Source: Opitutus sp. GAS368 (GTDB lineage Bacteria; Verrucomicrobiota; Verrucomicrobiia; Opitutales; Opitutaceae). From it: a DNA stretch of 64,000 bases. Of this stretch, positions 20,925-28,254 are shown piece by piece (positions within the stretch are counted from its first letter, which is position 1; the number at the start of each line of letters is the position of its first letter). The notes under the pieces are model-generated. The model was not told the DNA's origin. It saw only the letters and a program-made list of their open reading frames with translations, and did no database searches. The position numbers were made by a program, and so were the translations under genes. The stretch is taken from NCBI GenBank assembly GCA_945903465.1, contig CAMDOF010000020.1:1-64000 (forward strand). The letters run 5' to 3'.

Positions 20925-20997
20925 CTTCTCAATTGTCGTGGCCCTCTTTCGTCGCATCCCGGTCGCCGCGACCTTGATTTTTAACGGCGTCCTGACC
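20925..20997 (+). repeat. Second copy of the leader and signal-peptide start of the S9-like gene
   Basis: This 73-base stretch matches 24301-24373 with 9 differences. It includes a GTG at 20938 and would encode MALFRRIPVAATLIFNGVLT, compared with MSLFRRISVATTLIFNGVLT at the start of the S9-like protein. After this point the frame (to 21201) turns into Pro/Ser-rich sequence with no family resemblance, so it looks like a remnant, or a leader that does not belong to a functional gene. It sits 121 bp upstream of the sugar isomerase-like gene. Confidence 0.75.
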
Positions 20998-21118: not shown

Positions 21119-21955
21119 ATGATCCCTCGTTGCTTTCAACCGTTCGCTCTCCTCCTTGCCGCCGTTTGGGCACTTGCGAACGCCCAGGCCGCCCCGGCTA
21201 ACGCCGGCCGCGGCCCTCTCCTCGGACTGCAAACGTGGACGTGCCGCAACATGACCTTCGACCAAGTCGTCGCGTTTGCCGTCAAGCATGGCGTCACTCA
21301 AATCGAATTCATCAAAGCCCACCTCGATCCCTCCGCCACCCCGAAAGAAAACCTCCGAAAAAAGGCGATCCTCGAGCAGCATGGGCTCACCGCCTACTCG
21401 TTCGGCGTCAACGGCACTTCCCTCGATCCCGCAGCTAATCGAACGTTGTTTGAGTTCGCGAAGCTCATGGGCATGAAGGTCATTATTGTGGAACCAAAAA
21501 ATCCCGCCGAGTGGGATAACCTCGAGGCGCTCGTTAAGGAATATGATATCAAGCTCGCCATCCATAATCACGGCACTGGCTCAACCTACGGCGATCCGGT
21601 CACCGTAAAAAAAATCCTCGCCGCCCGCGACCGCCGTATCGGTGTTTGCCTCGACGTCGGCTGGGTCACTTCGGCGGGCTTCGACGCCGCCGCCATCTTC
21701 CGCGACTACGGCGACCGCGTCTACGATATCCATTTCAAGGATAAGACCACCGAGACCGACGCGAAGGGTAAAGCCACGCCGGTCGATACCGAAATCGGCC
21801 AAGGCAAGGCCAACTACGCTGGGCTCTTCGCCGAAATAAAAAAGAGCCAATGGCGCGGAGTCATGGCGATCGAGACCGATTCCAAGGCGTTTGCCGAGGA
21901 TCCCAACCGCTTAGTCGCCGCGGCCAAAACTTTTTTCAACGCGAGCATTAAATAA
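21119..21955 (+). CDS. Exported sugar phosphate isomerase/epimerase-like TIM-barrel protein
   Basis: A 278-residue protein with a cleavable N-terminal signal (CFQPFALLLAAVWALANAQA). The mature part is an AP-endonuclease-2/xylose-isomerase-like TIM barrel, with GLQTWTCRN at the first strand, QIEFIKAHLD, IIVEPKN, the metal-site-like LAIHNHGTG, GVCLDVGWVTSAGFD and VYDIHFKDK in order, and a late MAIETDSKA. Glu/Asp/His positions for metal binding appear intact. A secreted epimerase or dehydrogenase-related sugar enzyme is likely; the exact substrate is not known. It is next to the sulfatase, which is 416 bp downstream. Confidence 0.82.
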   Translation: MIPRCFQPFALLLAAVWALANAQAAPANAGRGPLLGLQTWTCRNMTFDQVVAFAVKHGVTQIEFIKAHLDPSATPKENLRKKAILEQHGLTAYSFGVNGTSLDPAANRTLFEFAKLMGMKVIIVEPKNPAEWDNLEALVKEYDIKLAIHNHGTGSTYGDPVTVKKILAARDRRIGVCLDVGWVTSAGFDAAAIFRDYGDRVYDIHFKDKTTETDAKGKATPVDTEIGQGKANYAGLFAEIKKSQWRGVMAIETDSKAFAEDPNRLVAAAKTFFNASIK

Positions 21956-23838: not shown

Positions 23839-24313
23839 CCGTTCATTCTCCGCGTACCCCGCGGCCACAGGCCTCGTTTAACCAACGCGCAGCCGTCTTC
23901 GGGTTAAAGAAAAACTCCCGCGATTCGTCTTTTCCCAGGCCGGTCCCCCGCGCGCTCCGTCCTCCGCGTACTCGCCCCTGTCCGCTCGCCGCGCCGGCCC
24001 TTTCCACTGCGGTTTTTTCCCGTTCAGCTCGCTTCGGCACCCGCCTCCGCTCCCGTCCCGCTGGCTAGGCCAACGCTTCCGACTGGGGACGTTACCTCCG
24101 CCAAGTTCTCCTCCGGGCGCCCCGCCCCACTCCCTTTCCGTCATCGACGCACCGAAAAATGCGGCTGATTTTTTCGCTTGGAGATATCTTCCCGCTTAGC
24201 CCGAAGATCTTTCCGGTCCGACCACGAAGGCCCTCACCCCGCCGCAATTCGCCGACGTCTTATTCTGTTTACCCTGTCACCGCTGCAGGTTCCGCCCCGT
24301 CTTCTCCATTGTC
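23839..24313. other. Intergenic, nothing recognised apart from the leader at its end
   Basis: A 475-bp gap with no gene. Its last 13 bases (24301-24313) are the upstream part of the duplicated leader shared with 20925-20937. Confidence 0.5.
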
Positions 24314-26491
24314 GTGTCACTCTTTCGTCGCATCAGTGTCGCCACTACCTTGATTTTTAACGGCGTCCTCACCAGCCGCGCGGCGTCGTCGTTTGAGGAA
24401 CGAATTACGGCGTTGTACCGCCCTCTCCAAGCTGACCAGGTGGCGCTATCGCCAGATGGCGAATACCTCGCCTACACTCGCCACGACCGCGGCGAGCTCG
24501 CCATCTATATCATGGCGATCGACCACACCGAGAGGAAATTCAAGATTGGCGTCGAGGGAGACCGCGCGGTCGCGTTCAGCAAGGAGAAAGCCCCGCCGCG
24601 CCTTCGCTTCCTGCGCTGGGCCTCACCCCGCCGGCTCGTCTTCGCACCGACCGAATATAACAACGGTGTCCGAGTAATCGCGCCCATCTATGCCGTCAAT
24701 CGCGACGGCACGGATCCCAAGAACCTAGCGGAAAGCGACGACTTCGCGCTCCTCGCCGGCGGCGTGGCCGAGGCACCGCCGACAACCGTCGAACGGAAGA
24801 CGGCCATTCTCGGATTCATGCCCGGTAACCGCGACACGTTGCTCGTCGAGGCTCGGGGACGACCGACTTTTCCTCCGGAGGATCCGATTCCGACCACGTT
24901 GTTCTCCATGAACCTTGCGACCGGTAAGTTGACCACGTTGACCGAGGAGCAGCACGACGGTCGCTACTTCTACGATCAGAAGGGAAATGCGCGCCTCGTT
25001 TACACGCATCCCCGTCTCTCGACGACGCGCACCTTTCTCCAAAACACCGGCGGGACTTGGGGCCGCTGGGTCAACGCCAGCGAAAACTGGGCCGGCCCGA
25101 CCGCAAAAACATTCCCCGTGACGATCGCCAATTACTATGGCGAGCGCGCCTTTCCCCTCGGGTTCGATGCGAACCCCGATATCCTGTACTACGCATCCAA
25201 CCTCGGCCGCGATACCTACGGCGTCTACGCGCTCGATCTCGCGCGCAAGCAGCCCACCGGATTCACACTCGAGGAGCCCCATGTCGACTTGGTGTCGCTC
25301 GAACCGGGCGATGCGAGCGCAGGCCTTGTCTTCGACGAAACCCGCGGCCACCTAGCCGGCGTGCGCGCCCTCGGGCTGGCGCCGTTTACCCGCTGGGTCG
25401 ATCCCGAACTCGCCCGCATTCAGGTCGATGTCGATCGGAAGTTTACCCAGCGCACCGTTGAAATCGTGCAGTGGGACGATGCACGCCGGCGGTTCCTACT
25501 CCGCGTCACCGGTGGCGTCGAGCCGGGCCGATATTATGTCTACCAACGCCCCGAGAACGTCGTGGTTGAGGTGTTGCGGCGCGCGCCGTGGCTGCGGAAC
25601 GCCGACCTGCACAACGGAACCGCCTTCGCCTTCGATACGCCGGGAGGAGTGCACCTCACCGGCCATCTCACGTTCCCGCGCCAATCACGACTCAATCCGC
25701 CGCCGCTGCTGATCGATTTCTCCGACGGACTAATGGGCCGACCGCTCCACGGCTTCGATCCCGACGCGCAGGCCCTTGCAGAAATGGGTTTCATCGTGGC
25801 GCGAATTAATCATCGCGGCGGCGGGGGCTTTGGCGTGAAGCATCGCCGCGCCATTCACGCCGGTATCGATCGTGTACCGGTCGACGATGCCCTCGCCACG
25901 ATCGAGTGGATTGCGCAACACCACGCCATCGACCGAAGGCGGATCGCCACGATCGGGCGCGGGCTCGGGGGTTATCTCGCGCTCCGCGCGGTCCAACTGG
26001 AATCAGCGAAGTTCCGCTGCGCCGTCGCCATCGAAGCACCCCTCGATCCACGCGCGTGGCTGGAACCGCCGCTCGAGGATCTTGGACCGGGCGCTTCCGA
26101 GAGCGCGGCCGATATCGGTTTTCGCCCCTCGCGGCCGTCTCGGCCCCCACCGCCGATCAATTTCTTGCAAGAAGCGCAGCGCACATTTCTGGCGCAGGGT
26201 AAACAAAAGCCGTCCGAACTGTCGGTCCTGCGAAACATCGACCAACTCACCAAGCCGGTCATGCTGGTGGTCGATGCGCCACGAGACCAAGCCATCACCG
26301 CGCAAAACTCCGACTTGCGCTCGAAATTGAAGCGGCTCGGCCGACCAGCCGAGTACGTCGAGGTGGGCAGCGGTTTCGCCGAAAACATCCCTGGAGCCAA
26401 GGCCAAGCTGTTTCGCCAGATCGAGGAATTCTTTAACCTCAACTTGTATGATTACAAAGTGAACGTCGGCCCGGCCCAGGAGGTAAAATGA
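24314..26491 (+). CDS. Exported S9-peptidase-like protein lacking catalytic Ser and His
   Basis: A 725-residue protein with a signal peptide (SLFRRISVATTLIFNGVLTS). The N-terminal two thirds is a beta-propeller-like domain, with repeats such as ALSPDGEYLAYTRHDRG. The C-terminal third (about residues 450-700) has the prolyl-oligopeptidase alpha/beta-hydrolase layout: VHLTGHLTFPRQ, INHRGGGGFG, then RRIATIGRGLGGYLALRAV. In the usual GxSxGG motif the Ser is replaced by Gly550 (GGG codon at 25961-25963). In the late motif usually EGHGF, the residue is Ser686 in VGSGF (AGC at 26369-26371). It is therefore probably not a working protease. The start is GTG 24314. It overlaps the next gene by 4 bp (ATGA). 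Confidence 0.85.
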   Translation: MSLFRRISVATTLIFNGVLTSRAASSFEERITALYRPLQADQVALSPDGEYLAYTRHDRGELAIYIMAIDHTERKFKIGVEGDRAVAFSKEKAPPRLRFLRWASPRRLVFAPTEYNNGVRVIAPIYAVNRDGTDPKNLAESDDFALLAGGVAEAPPTTVERKTAILGFMPGNRDTLLVEARGRPTFPPEDPIPTTLFSMNLATGKLTTLTEEQHDGRYFYDQKGNARLVYTHPRLSTTRTFLQNTGGTWGRWVNASENWAGPTAKTFPVTIANYYGERAFPLGFDANPDILYYASNLGRDTYGVYALDLARKQPTGFTLEEPHVDLVSLEPGDASAGLVFDETRGHLAGVRALGLAPFTRWVDPELARIQVDVDRKFTQRTVEIVQWDDARRRFLLRVTGGVEPGRYYVYQRPENVVVEVLRRAPWLRNADLHNGTAFAFDTPGGVHLTGHLTFPRQSRLNPPPLLIDFSDGLMGRPLHGFDPDAQALAEMGFIVARINHRGGGGFGVKHRRAIHAGIDRVPVDDALATIEWIAQHHAIDRRRIATIGRGLGGYLALRAVQLESAKFRCAVAIEAPLDPRAWLEPPLEDLGPGASESAADIGFRPSRPSRPPPPINFLQEAQRTFLAQGKQKPSELSVLRNIDQLTKPVMLVVDAPRDQAITAQNSDLRSKLKRLGRPAEYVEVGSGFAENIPGAKAKLFRQIEEFFNLNLYDYKVNVGPAQEVK

Positions 26492-28254
26492 ACGCCGTCC
26501 GCGCGCTCAGTTTCGCCGGTTTCGCGACAGGCCTGATCGCCGCCGGCGCAGCGGCGGAGACCACCTCCCTCACTCCGCCGGCCGCGCCGAAGAGCGCCGT
26601 CGAACGCGAGGCGGCGATCGAACTTCCACCCATGATTATCAGCGAGTCGTCGAAGGCCGCGCCGTGGCTCTACGTGGCAGTTGACGACACGGAATACCTC
26701 TCGCGCTGCTCGGCTACAACAACGCGCGCCTATGTGACCGCGCAACTGGAGATCCGCCGAATTTTACACGTCTTCGTCCCAGCAGATTTTTTTGGCACGA
26801 GCGCCGTCCGCTCGGTCTCCCTCCTCGCTCCGTTAGAGACCGGCTCGGGCACCGACGACGCCGTCCGCCGCGAGATGCAGCGGACCGCGCAGCAATCGAT
26901 GCAGGCCACCAACGATGAGAATCGCCGAGCGCGAAGGCTACCGTCGCCGGGGCAGTTTCGGTTCCTCCCAAATCTCCGCCTCGATGATCGCGATATGCTG
27001 GCGGTCTTTAGTTATCTCAGCGAGAGGGATTTCCGCGGCGAAAACATGATTGCGGCGGACGATTACGTTTATGCGCGACTGGTCGCCCGGACACCGACGC
27101 TGCCCGGCTGGCTGATTCAGGGTATCACGCGCCTCTATCCACAAACGACCACGCGGGTTGATCCGATTACGATGCGGCCGGTCCGCTGGCTTTCGCCGGA
27201 AGACACCGCCGGACTACAACGCGATCCGGAAAGCCGGCGCGTGATGATTCCTGCCAGTGAGCTCTTCGACATCCGCGCGCTGTCGACGCCGGAAAACCAG
27301 CACCCCTTGCGCGTCGCCGCTTGGCAAGCGCAAGCGGCGCTATTTGTCCGCTGGGCCCTCGATCCGGCCCAGGCGCCGGCCGCCGCGTCACTCTGGAGCT
27401 TTGCCCGCCGCGTTAGCCAAGAACCAGCCACCGAGGCGGTCTTCGCCGAATGTTTTGGTTTCGGCTACGCCGATCTGCAGGAGCGCCTCAGCGATTACCT
27501 ACCCGTGGCCGTGAAACAACCAGCCCGAATTCTTTCCGGTAAACTAGCTCCGCTACCCCGCTTCGAGATCAAGCCAGCGACACCCGCCCAAATCGCAAGA
27601 CTGCGCGGCGAATGGGAGCGGCTCGAGATTCCTTTCGTGCGGAGCAAGCACCCGGAGTTCCTTCCCAAGTACATCGAGCAGGCCCGGACTTCCTTGCTCC
27701 GAGCGGTGGGCCGCGGTGACCGCGATCCCCGACTGCTCGCCGCGCTCGGATTGTGCGAGCTCGATGCAGGCGATGCCAAGGCAGCGCGCCCATGGCTCGA
27801 ACAGGCCGCCGCGGCCCGCGTGGCCGGCCCGCGCGTCTACTACGAGATCGCGCGCCTGCGATGGGCGGAACTGATCGGAGGTGAACCCGAGACGTCCGGT
27901 TTCACGGCGGCGCAGCTTCAGGCCGTGCTCGAACCGTTGCGCGTCGCCGCCTCGCAATCACCGCCCCTACCCGAAGTGTACATGCTCATGGCGGACGCCT
28001 GGCTCCGCTGCCGCGAACGCGTACGCGCGTCCGATCTGCCCACGCTCGTCGCAGCCACACCGCTGTTTCGCAGTATTCCCGGAGTATCGTATCGCGTGGC
28101 GCTCATGCAGATCCGCGAGGGGCAGTATGCCGAAGCGGCTAAGTTGCTCAGCGTCGGCGCGGAATTTGCAATCGAAGCCAATGTGCGGGCCCAATACCAA
28201 GAAGTGCTCGCCGCACTCGCCCAGTCAACCAAGCCGACCCCCGAAAAAGAGTGA
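26488..28254 (+). CDS. Exported protein with degenerate gluzincin-like site and helical repeats
   Basis: A 588-residue protein with a signal peptide (MNAVRALSFAGFATGLIAAG). The region around residues 185-220 resembles the HExxH and WL-EG motifs of peptidase-MA-type gluzincins, but reads DDYVY (191-195) and WLIQG (208-212), so all the zinc ligands I can align are absent. The C-terminal third (about 400-588) is Ala/Leu-rich with TPR-like helix pairs, such as DPRLLAALGLCELDAGDAKAA. The start ATG 26488 overlaps the upstream S9-like gene and has a perfect AGGAGGT four bases before it, unusual for this window. A paired role with the S9-like protein is likely; the function is unknown. Confidence 0.75.
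   Translation: MNAVRALSFAGFATGLIAAGAAAETTSLTPPAAPKSAVEREAAIELPPMIISESSKAAPWLYVAVDDTEYLSRCSATTTRAYVTAQLEIRRILHVFVPADFFGTSAVRSVSLLAPLETGSGTDDAVRREMQRTAQQSMQATNDENRRARRLPSPGQFRFLPNLRLDDRDMLAVFSYLSERDFRGENMIAADDYVYARLVARTPTLPGWLIQGITRLYPQTTTRVDPITMRPVRWLSPEDTAGLQRDPESRRVMIPASELFDIRALSTPENQHPLRVAAWQAQAALFVRWALDPAQAPAAASLWSFARRVSQEPATEAVFAECFGFGYADLQERLSDYLPVAVKQPARILSGKLAPLPRFEIKPATPAQIARLRGEWERLEIPFVRSKHPEFLPKYIEQARTSLLRAVGRGDRDPRLLAALGLCELDAGDAKAARPWLEQAAAARVAGPRVYYEIARLRWAELIGGEPETSGFTAAQLQAVLEPLRVAASQSPPLPEVYMLMADAWLRCRERVRASDLPTLVAATPLFRSIPGVSYRVALMQIREGQYAEAAKLLSVGAEFAIEANVRAQYQEVLAALAQSTKPTPEKE

Follow-up and report, generated by a model that had tools for sequence, protein, structure and literature searches.

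A conserved S9 peptidase-like protein lacking its catalytic triad and an overlapping, predicted non-catalytic metallopeptidase relative in Opitutaceae

Two overlapping genes in the window, the 64,000-nucleotide stretch of Opitutus sp. GAS368 DNA analyzed here, encode a pair of proteins that we propose, with moderate confidence, to be exported and non-catalytic and to bind a ligand as a complex. As judged from sequence, both proteins lack the catalytic sites of the peptidase families to which they are related, the two genes are linked and usually overlap among the relatives, and the distances within the two sets of proteins covary. The first member would be an S9 (prolyl-oligopeptidase-like) protein without the nucleophile, the Asp, and the His, and the second a gluzincin-like protein (Peptidase_MA/DUF1570 type) without HExxH and with a C-terminal TPR-like part.

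24314..26491, plus strand: pseudo-S9 gene, 725 aa, beta-propeller and alpha/beta-hydrolase, predicted export, catalytic triad absent
24314..24385, plus strand: putative signal peptide of the pseudo-S9 protein, residues 1-24 (MSLFRRIS..SRAA), assigned by eye from the sequence
26488..28254, plus strand: partner gene NB, 588 aa, inactive gluzincin-like domain followed by TPR-like helices

The pseudo-S9 open reading frame (ORF), located in an assembly of 8.16 Mb and 343 contigs, has a GTG start and encodes 725 aa with zero internal stops, and its coordinates and frame are right. The sequence-only reading had described an S9 propeller and hydrolase of full length, and three lines of evidence agree with this: Pfam Peptidase_S9 (PF00326) matches residues 481-582 at 67.6 bits (cut-off 22.6) and is matched by all 56 members of our alignment A1; the AlphaFold2 model built from this 56-row alignment (mean pLDDT 89.5, pTM 0.88) consists of propeller-type strands and then an alpha/beta domain; and a Foldseek search with the model returned S9 peptidases, the best being 5l8s_A (E 2.7e-27). 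By Pfam and Foldseek alike, the protein fits the S9 (prolyl oligopeptidase) fold family. The N-terminus of the nearest orthologue, L061, is as long as that of the window protein but different. We also noticed that the pseudo-S9 start and the signal-peptide codons are spanned by one copy (24301-24373) of a 73-bp direct repeat, 88% identical, whose other copy (20925-20997) lies upstream of the gene at 21119; a genome search found these two copies only, and the L061 DNA differs there.

Active S9 enzymes use a Ser-Asp-His triad. To place the corresponding residues of the window protein (550, 657, and 686/688), we combined the family alignment with the secondary structure of the model.

25961..25963, plus strand: Gly550 codon, nucleophile position (GRGLGGY), from the family alignment and the model
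26282..26284, plus strand: Arg657 codon, catalytic Asp column, from the family alignment
26369..26377, plus strand: Ser686-Gly687-Phe688 codons, Phe688 being in the aligned catalytic His column, from the family alignment

In the AlphaFold2 model, Gly550 sits at the nucleophile elbow, where strand 540-549 gives way to helix 551-562, and both the family alignment and this elbow confirm that it replaces the nucleophile Ser, as had been read from GRGLGGY. The same comparison with S9 proteins moved the His column. The GSGF motif and the lack of a His, both pointed out before, hold, but the assignment of Ser686 to the His position is probably wrong: the catalytic His column of the family alignment falls on Phe688, two residues on, in a loop that is aligned with a gap and whose exact column is uncertain. 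The window protein is without a His whether the column is Ser686 or Phe688. Of the 60 lettered rows (of 70) in this column, 42 have Phe or Tyr and 6 have His. The Asp column, which the sequence-only reading had not mentioned, carries Arg657 in the window protein and retains Asp in 10 of 67 lettered rows (of 70). The window protein thus has no Ser in GxSxGG, no catalytic Asp, and no His, the residues by which an S9 peptidase is recognized, and on the alignment and the model it is an S9 fold from which the catalytic triad is absent.

The substitution at the nucleophile is inherited across a clade. Searches found matches in 25 of the 27 genomes of the genus and in 188 of 252 genomes of the family, ordinary S9 peptidases being among them. 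From the stronger matches we fetched 60 stretches and obtained 70 S9 relatives above 100 bits, the window protein included; an S9 profile match of 34 bits, L118:8760-11999, was excluded before this count, and L083 is truncated and has no letter at the nucleophile column, leaving 69 letters from the 70 members. These are 63 Gly, 5 Asp, 1 Asn, and 0 Ser. Twenty further stretches, mostly at the clade border, were then picked from the stronger matches, one of which (L309) had no S9 match. The added stretches contain 22 S9 matches, among them two fragments (L292:3718 and L291:1281) that are in the tree and not in the count; eleven of the other 20 fall in the clade, with 8 Gly, 1 Asp, 1 Trp, and 1 Lys at the nucleophile, and nine fall on the Ser-bearing side. 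Taken together, Ser is found in 0 of 80 lettered clade members (71 Gly, 6 Asp, 1 Asn, 1 Trp, 1 Lys), a sample in which the clade is under-represented, with at most four candidates per genome scored in the family search. The orthologues therefore keep the substitution. Gly, Asp, or Asn make up 78 of the 80 replacements. The nucleophile elbow is strained, and these three are the residues able to tolerate such a backbone; their predominance fits a fold that was kept while catalysis was released.

All eight active paralogues in the alignment have the Ser, the Asp, and the GH motif, and three of the eight (L002, L003, and L004) come from the window's own genome. Every clade member found belongs to the window's family, Opitutaceae, and the four relatives examined from other families of the order (L178, L179, L180, and L186) all have Ser. 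A scan of named genomes with the window protein found no relative, and the scan with the partner alignment gave 75 loci; 32 S9 matches on those loci are outside the counts above. A search of plasmid proteins returned distant S9 proteins only (32 records, all below 60% identity, the ten listed having 21-27%).

Phylogenetic trees set the clade apart from the Ser-bearing S9 proteins with an SH-aLRT support of 100, both with 9 and with 19 comparison S9s. Five members placed toward the Ser-bearing side (L071, L073, L078, L109, and L115; SH-aLRT 99) already have Gly and keep the His, and L071 and L073 also keep the catalytic Asp; the loss was thus stepwise, with Ser lost first and His and Asp later. 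Among the nine matches on the Ser-bearing side, six have Ser (L290:2368, L294, L295, L297, L307, and L308), and the other three have Gly (L290:237 and L298) or Lys (L296), implying that Ser was lost more than once. We noticed that L290:237-2279 (Gly) and L290:2368-4548 (Ser) are tandem S9 genes outside the main clade, where Ser was lost independently. In the largest tree, a single long row makes the midpoint root meaningless and some deep forks reach supports of 88-93, and the monophyly of the clade was read there by rooting on the Ser-bearing group.

To see how selection acts on the genes, we compared the window with L061, whose S9 protein is 78% identical. The dN/dS (NG86) of the pseudo-S9 gene is 0.156, with 0.155 for the propeller and 0.114 for the hydrolase domain, values that are rough since dS is about 1 in this comparison; the partner gene gave 0.167. 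Six other clade pairs gave 0.08 to 0.28 in five cases and 0.37 in one. These values indicate that the gene pair of the window is under purifying selection, the inactive hydrolase domain included. That the pseudo-S9 gene is a recent or ongoing pseudogene is extremely unlikely; copies elsewhere are broken or misassembled (the L083 ORF is cut short and the copy of G006:C4, L227, lies in separate frames), but the window ORF is intact and its state is common to the 80 lettered members, and gene decay is ruled out by the dN/dS together with the clade-wide conservation.

25985..25987, plus strand: Arg558 codon, Arg in 65/69 clade members and Ala in 8/8 active paralogues

Arg558 is on the helix that follows the nucleophile elbow. 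Two further residues are specific to the clade, Trp387 (66 of 70) and Arg351 (63 of 69), both of which are variable in the active set. The conservation of Arg558, Trp387, and Arg351 suggests that the clade gained constraint beyond the mere loss of the triad. We looked for a replacement triad and found no Ser, Cys, or His column with at least 85% conservation among the columns filled in at least 60 of the 70 rows; the conserved polar residues of the clade are Trp, Asp, Arg, Gln, and one Thr. This result, and the scarcity of His in its own column, make it very unlikely that the pseudo-S9 protein is an enzyme working by a different mechanism, for example through an Asp, an Arg, or a residue of the partner, even though the fold and the domain boundaries are intact, the elbow is conserved, and six of the 80 members have Asp at the nucleophile. 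The sequence-only reading had named two results that would contradict it, another Ser and His reaching the active site in a structure, or orthologues with an intact triad and an alteration in this genome alone. Neither was found, no member placed in the clade having Ser, and the view that the enzyme is inactive but conserved, and not decaying, is upheld by the lack of Ser across the clade, the separation of the clade in the trees, the low dN/dS, and the lack of a rebuilt triad.

The pseudo-S9 gene is directly followed by the partner gene, NB, and the two overlap.

26488..26491, plus strand: ATGA, NB start codon overlapping the pseudo-S9 stop, from the sequence

Partner homologues lie beside 41 of the 70 pseudo-S9 genes, 40 of which were found by script; the remaining one is L101, whose partner ORF start was over-extended. 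In the junctions with the partner downstream, 32 of 38 have an in-frame overlapping start, and L061 is one of the six that do not overlap, its partner starting about 190 bp downstream. The partner is downstream except in three loci (L065, L081, and L082), where the order is reversed and the genes are still adjacent, and whole pairs are repeated in four loci (L062, L074 with three, L093, and L114). A mirror-tree comparison of 39 pairs gave an r of 0.863, where 1000 permutations reached at most 0.257, with the nearest neighbor common to both proteins in 32 of the 39, a correlation that is also explained by plain co-inheritance of two adjacent genes. Among the observations that speak against the pair model, 29 of the 70 members have no adjacent partner, including sub-clades of 5, 18, and 6 rows, and L061 lacks the overlap. 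The members without a partner, above all these whole sub-clades, would be expected if the pseudo-S9 protein worked by itself in a binding or receptor role, with the partner being just a frequent neighbor kept by operon structure. We regard this as a minor possibility, since the in-frame overlap in most junctions and the adjacency that is retained when the order is reversed or the whole pair is repeated argue for a joint role where the partner is present, and a pair of proteins acting together remains our preferred reading.

The partner family is wider than the pair. Within the family, 145 of 252 genomes contain it at an E of 1e-10 or better; in a set spread over the phylum, 36 of 387 genomes do so at E 1e-5, and there the matches stronger than 1e-7 are from the same family except G583, which is from the order. 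Some of its paralogues lie apart from any pseudo-S9 gene. The alignments used here cover 56 of the 70 pseudo-S9 members (A1) and 32 of the 41 partners (A2).

The N-terminal domain of the partner can be traced to metallopeptidases through its distant relatives.

27058..27072, plus strand: DDYVY, residues 191-195, at the HExxH position of DUF1570-type relatives, from the alignment
27109..27123, plus strand: WLIQG, residues 208-212, at the WLNEG position (Glu to Gln), from the alignment

BLASTP aligns the window partner with L149 across the active site (E 1e-14), such that HEYVH faces DDYVY and WLNEG faces WLIQG, and L149 matches DUF1570 in Pfam (1.6e-7), as does L150. In distant relatives of the partner, both HExxH and WLNEG are retained, and these proteins match DUF1570 or Peptidase_MA, in some cases below the cut-off. 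HExxH is present in all 24 DUF1570-type relatives, which were found with an HExxH-bearing query. Of 25 intermediate paralogues, 4 have it, and of 40 lettered partners none does (the 32 of the alignment and 8 more; the L075 fragment has no letters there); two of the 24 relatives, L191 and L195, are the same genes as L149 and L150 among the 25 paralogues. The Glu of WLNEG, which we take to be the third zinc ligand, is retained in 13 of 32 partners. The Pfam search with the window partner itself gave no DUF1570 match and TPR matches below the cut-off. For the TPR part, the best PDB profile match is 7rqf, PA4667 (LbcA), with an E of 5.4e-9, and Foldseek gave TPR matches from E 7e-5; among the best 50 Foldseek matches, which are mostly of the TPR type, no gluzincin was found for the N-terminal domain. 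From the alignments, we conclude that the partner is a gluzincin-like protein without the HExxH zinc site. We also noticed partner-family paralogues lacking HExxH that occur as tandem pairs (L140, L142, and L144), in fetched stretches without a pseudo-S9 profile match.

In our reading, the two proteins would be translated in a coupled manner and exported across the inner membrane. The most probable outcome there is a complex whose peptide or protein ligand would be bound by the propeller/hydrolase cavity together with the TPR surface, and this ligand might be held, presented, or regulated rather than cut. We infer from the sequences that the pair probably binds or holds something and performs no cutting. 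A role of the pseudo-S9 protein as a scaffold or regulator, suggested earlier, is plausible and gains weight from the conserved overlapping partner, itself an inactive peptidase relative.

A possible connection of the pair to TonB-dependent receptors comes from a short motif of the partner and from receptor genes in some of the loci.

26617..26640, plus strand: partner N-terminal motif IELPPMII, residues 44-51 (family VxLPPMxV), from the sequence
G000:C134, 14214-15137, minus strand: Ser-bearing S9 paralogue
G000:C134, 16272-16628, plus strand: receptor Plug match
G000:C134, 19004-20479, plus strand: Ser-bearing S9 paralogue

VxLPPMxV, which follows the partner signal peptide, resembles the VxLSPFxV that some of the TonB-dependent receptors encoded at these loci carry. 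A regular expression for the motif, applied to 2868 ORFs, gave 28 matches that comprise 22 partners, 6 receptors, and 0 others; it was composed after both motifs had been seen, and 19 of the 41 partner ORFs and 10 of the 16 receptor ORFs escaped it. Receptor genes occur in 16 of the 60 fetched loci and within 200 bp of the module in eight, and in L061, the closest orthologue, a receptor gene is directly downstream of the pair. A receptor profile run on the window gave no match. We do not claim an enrichment of receptors near the pair, as these genomes are rich in them: 8 of 20 (G000, G005, G007, G008, G009, G011, G017, and G018) gave at least 141 Plug matches each. Elsewhere in the window's own genome, on G000:C134, the Ser-bearing S9 paralogues L002 and L003 flank a receptor Plug match.

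The motif resemblance and the receptor genes close to the module are what would favor the pair as an accessory of a TonB-dependent receptor, for example a peptide-binding subunit. We consider this unlikely, because adjacency is not clearly above the background set by such common receptors, several of the eight close cases are related by descent, the receptor profile has no match in the window, and the regular expression was made post hoc and missed many partners and receptors. A bolder form of our own proposal, an obligate, exported, non-catalytic S9 and gluzincin heteromer that serves as a peptide or protein receptor and is possibly TonB-linked through VxLPPMxV, is put forward tentatively. 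Clustering of the flanking ORFs gave clusters of at most eight loci, made up of common families (receptors, sulfatases, and Gfo/Idh oxidoreductases) or close relatives only, and Pfam assigned unrelated functions, or none, to 20 flanking proteins. Outside the pair, gene content differs among most loci and points to no pathway.

Among the known proteins related to the pair, the bacterial S9 peptidases 5l8s and 8wt1 rank near the top of the window protein's matches in sequence and in fold; in contrast to active S9 enzymes of this type, the window protein has Gly, Arg, and probably Phe at the triad positions. The partner is like DUF1570/Peptidase_MA proteins across the catalytic motif but differs from them in that none of the 40 lettered partners has HExxH. 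In its TPR part, it is like the TPR adaptor PA4667 (LbcA), a similarity that is generic for TPR proteins; LbcA is an adaptor of the CtpA protease. Among the open-licence titles listed in a literature search, none concerns such a bacterial pair. If the bolder reading is true, Opitutaceae turned two unrelated peptidase families into one non-catalytic heteromer. Some genomes have several copies of the pseudo-S9 gene, which is often paired with the second, independently inactive peptidase relative, and the live relatives of both S9 and DUF1570 type in this bacterial family, together with the live/dead tandem of L290, would offer a setting for following how a peptidase becomes a binding protein.

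The best-known inactive S9 proteins are DPP6 and DPP10 of animals. These S9B proteins (DPPX and DPPY), which have a propeller and a hydrolase fold with the Ser replaced, as the window protein does, modulate Kv4 channels instead of cutting; the partner of the window gene is instead an inactive gluzincin relative. DPP10 is also the second phmmer match of the window protein (35.9 bits). The catalytic Ser is replaced by Asp in DPP6 and by Gly in DPP10 with the elbow unaltered, and DPP10 retains His759 and Asp727 (PMC4350108), whereas the window protein is without all three triad residues. Proteins of the DPP6/DPP10 type are regulatory subunits of a membrane channel and type II membrane proteins. 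The Gly shared by DPP10 and the bacterial clade looks like a parallel change, because the clade groups with S9 proteins of its own order; DPP10 itself is outside our trees. By analogy, DPP6 and DPP10 are the nearest precedent for inactive S9 proteins that partner something else, and a nucleophile loss of this kind has become fixed in the bacterial clade and is kept there under selection.
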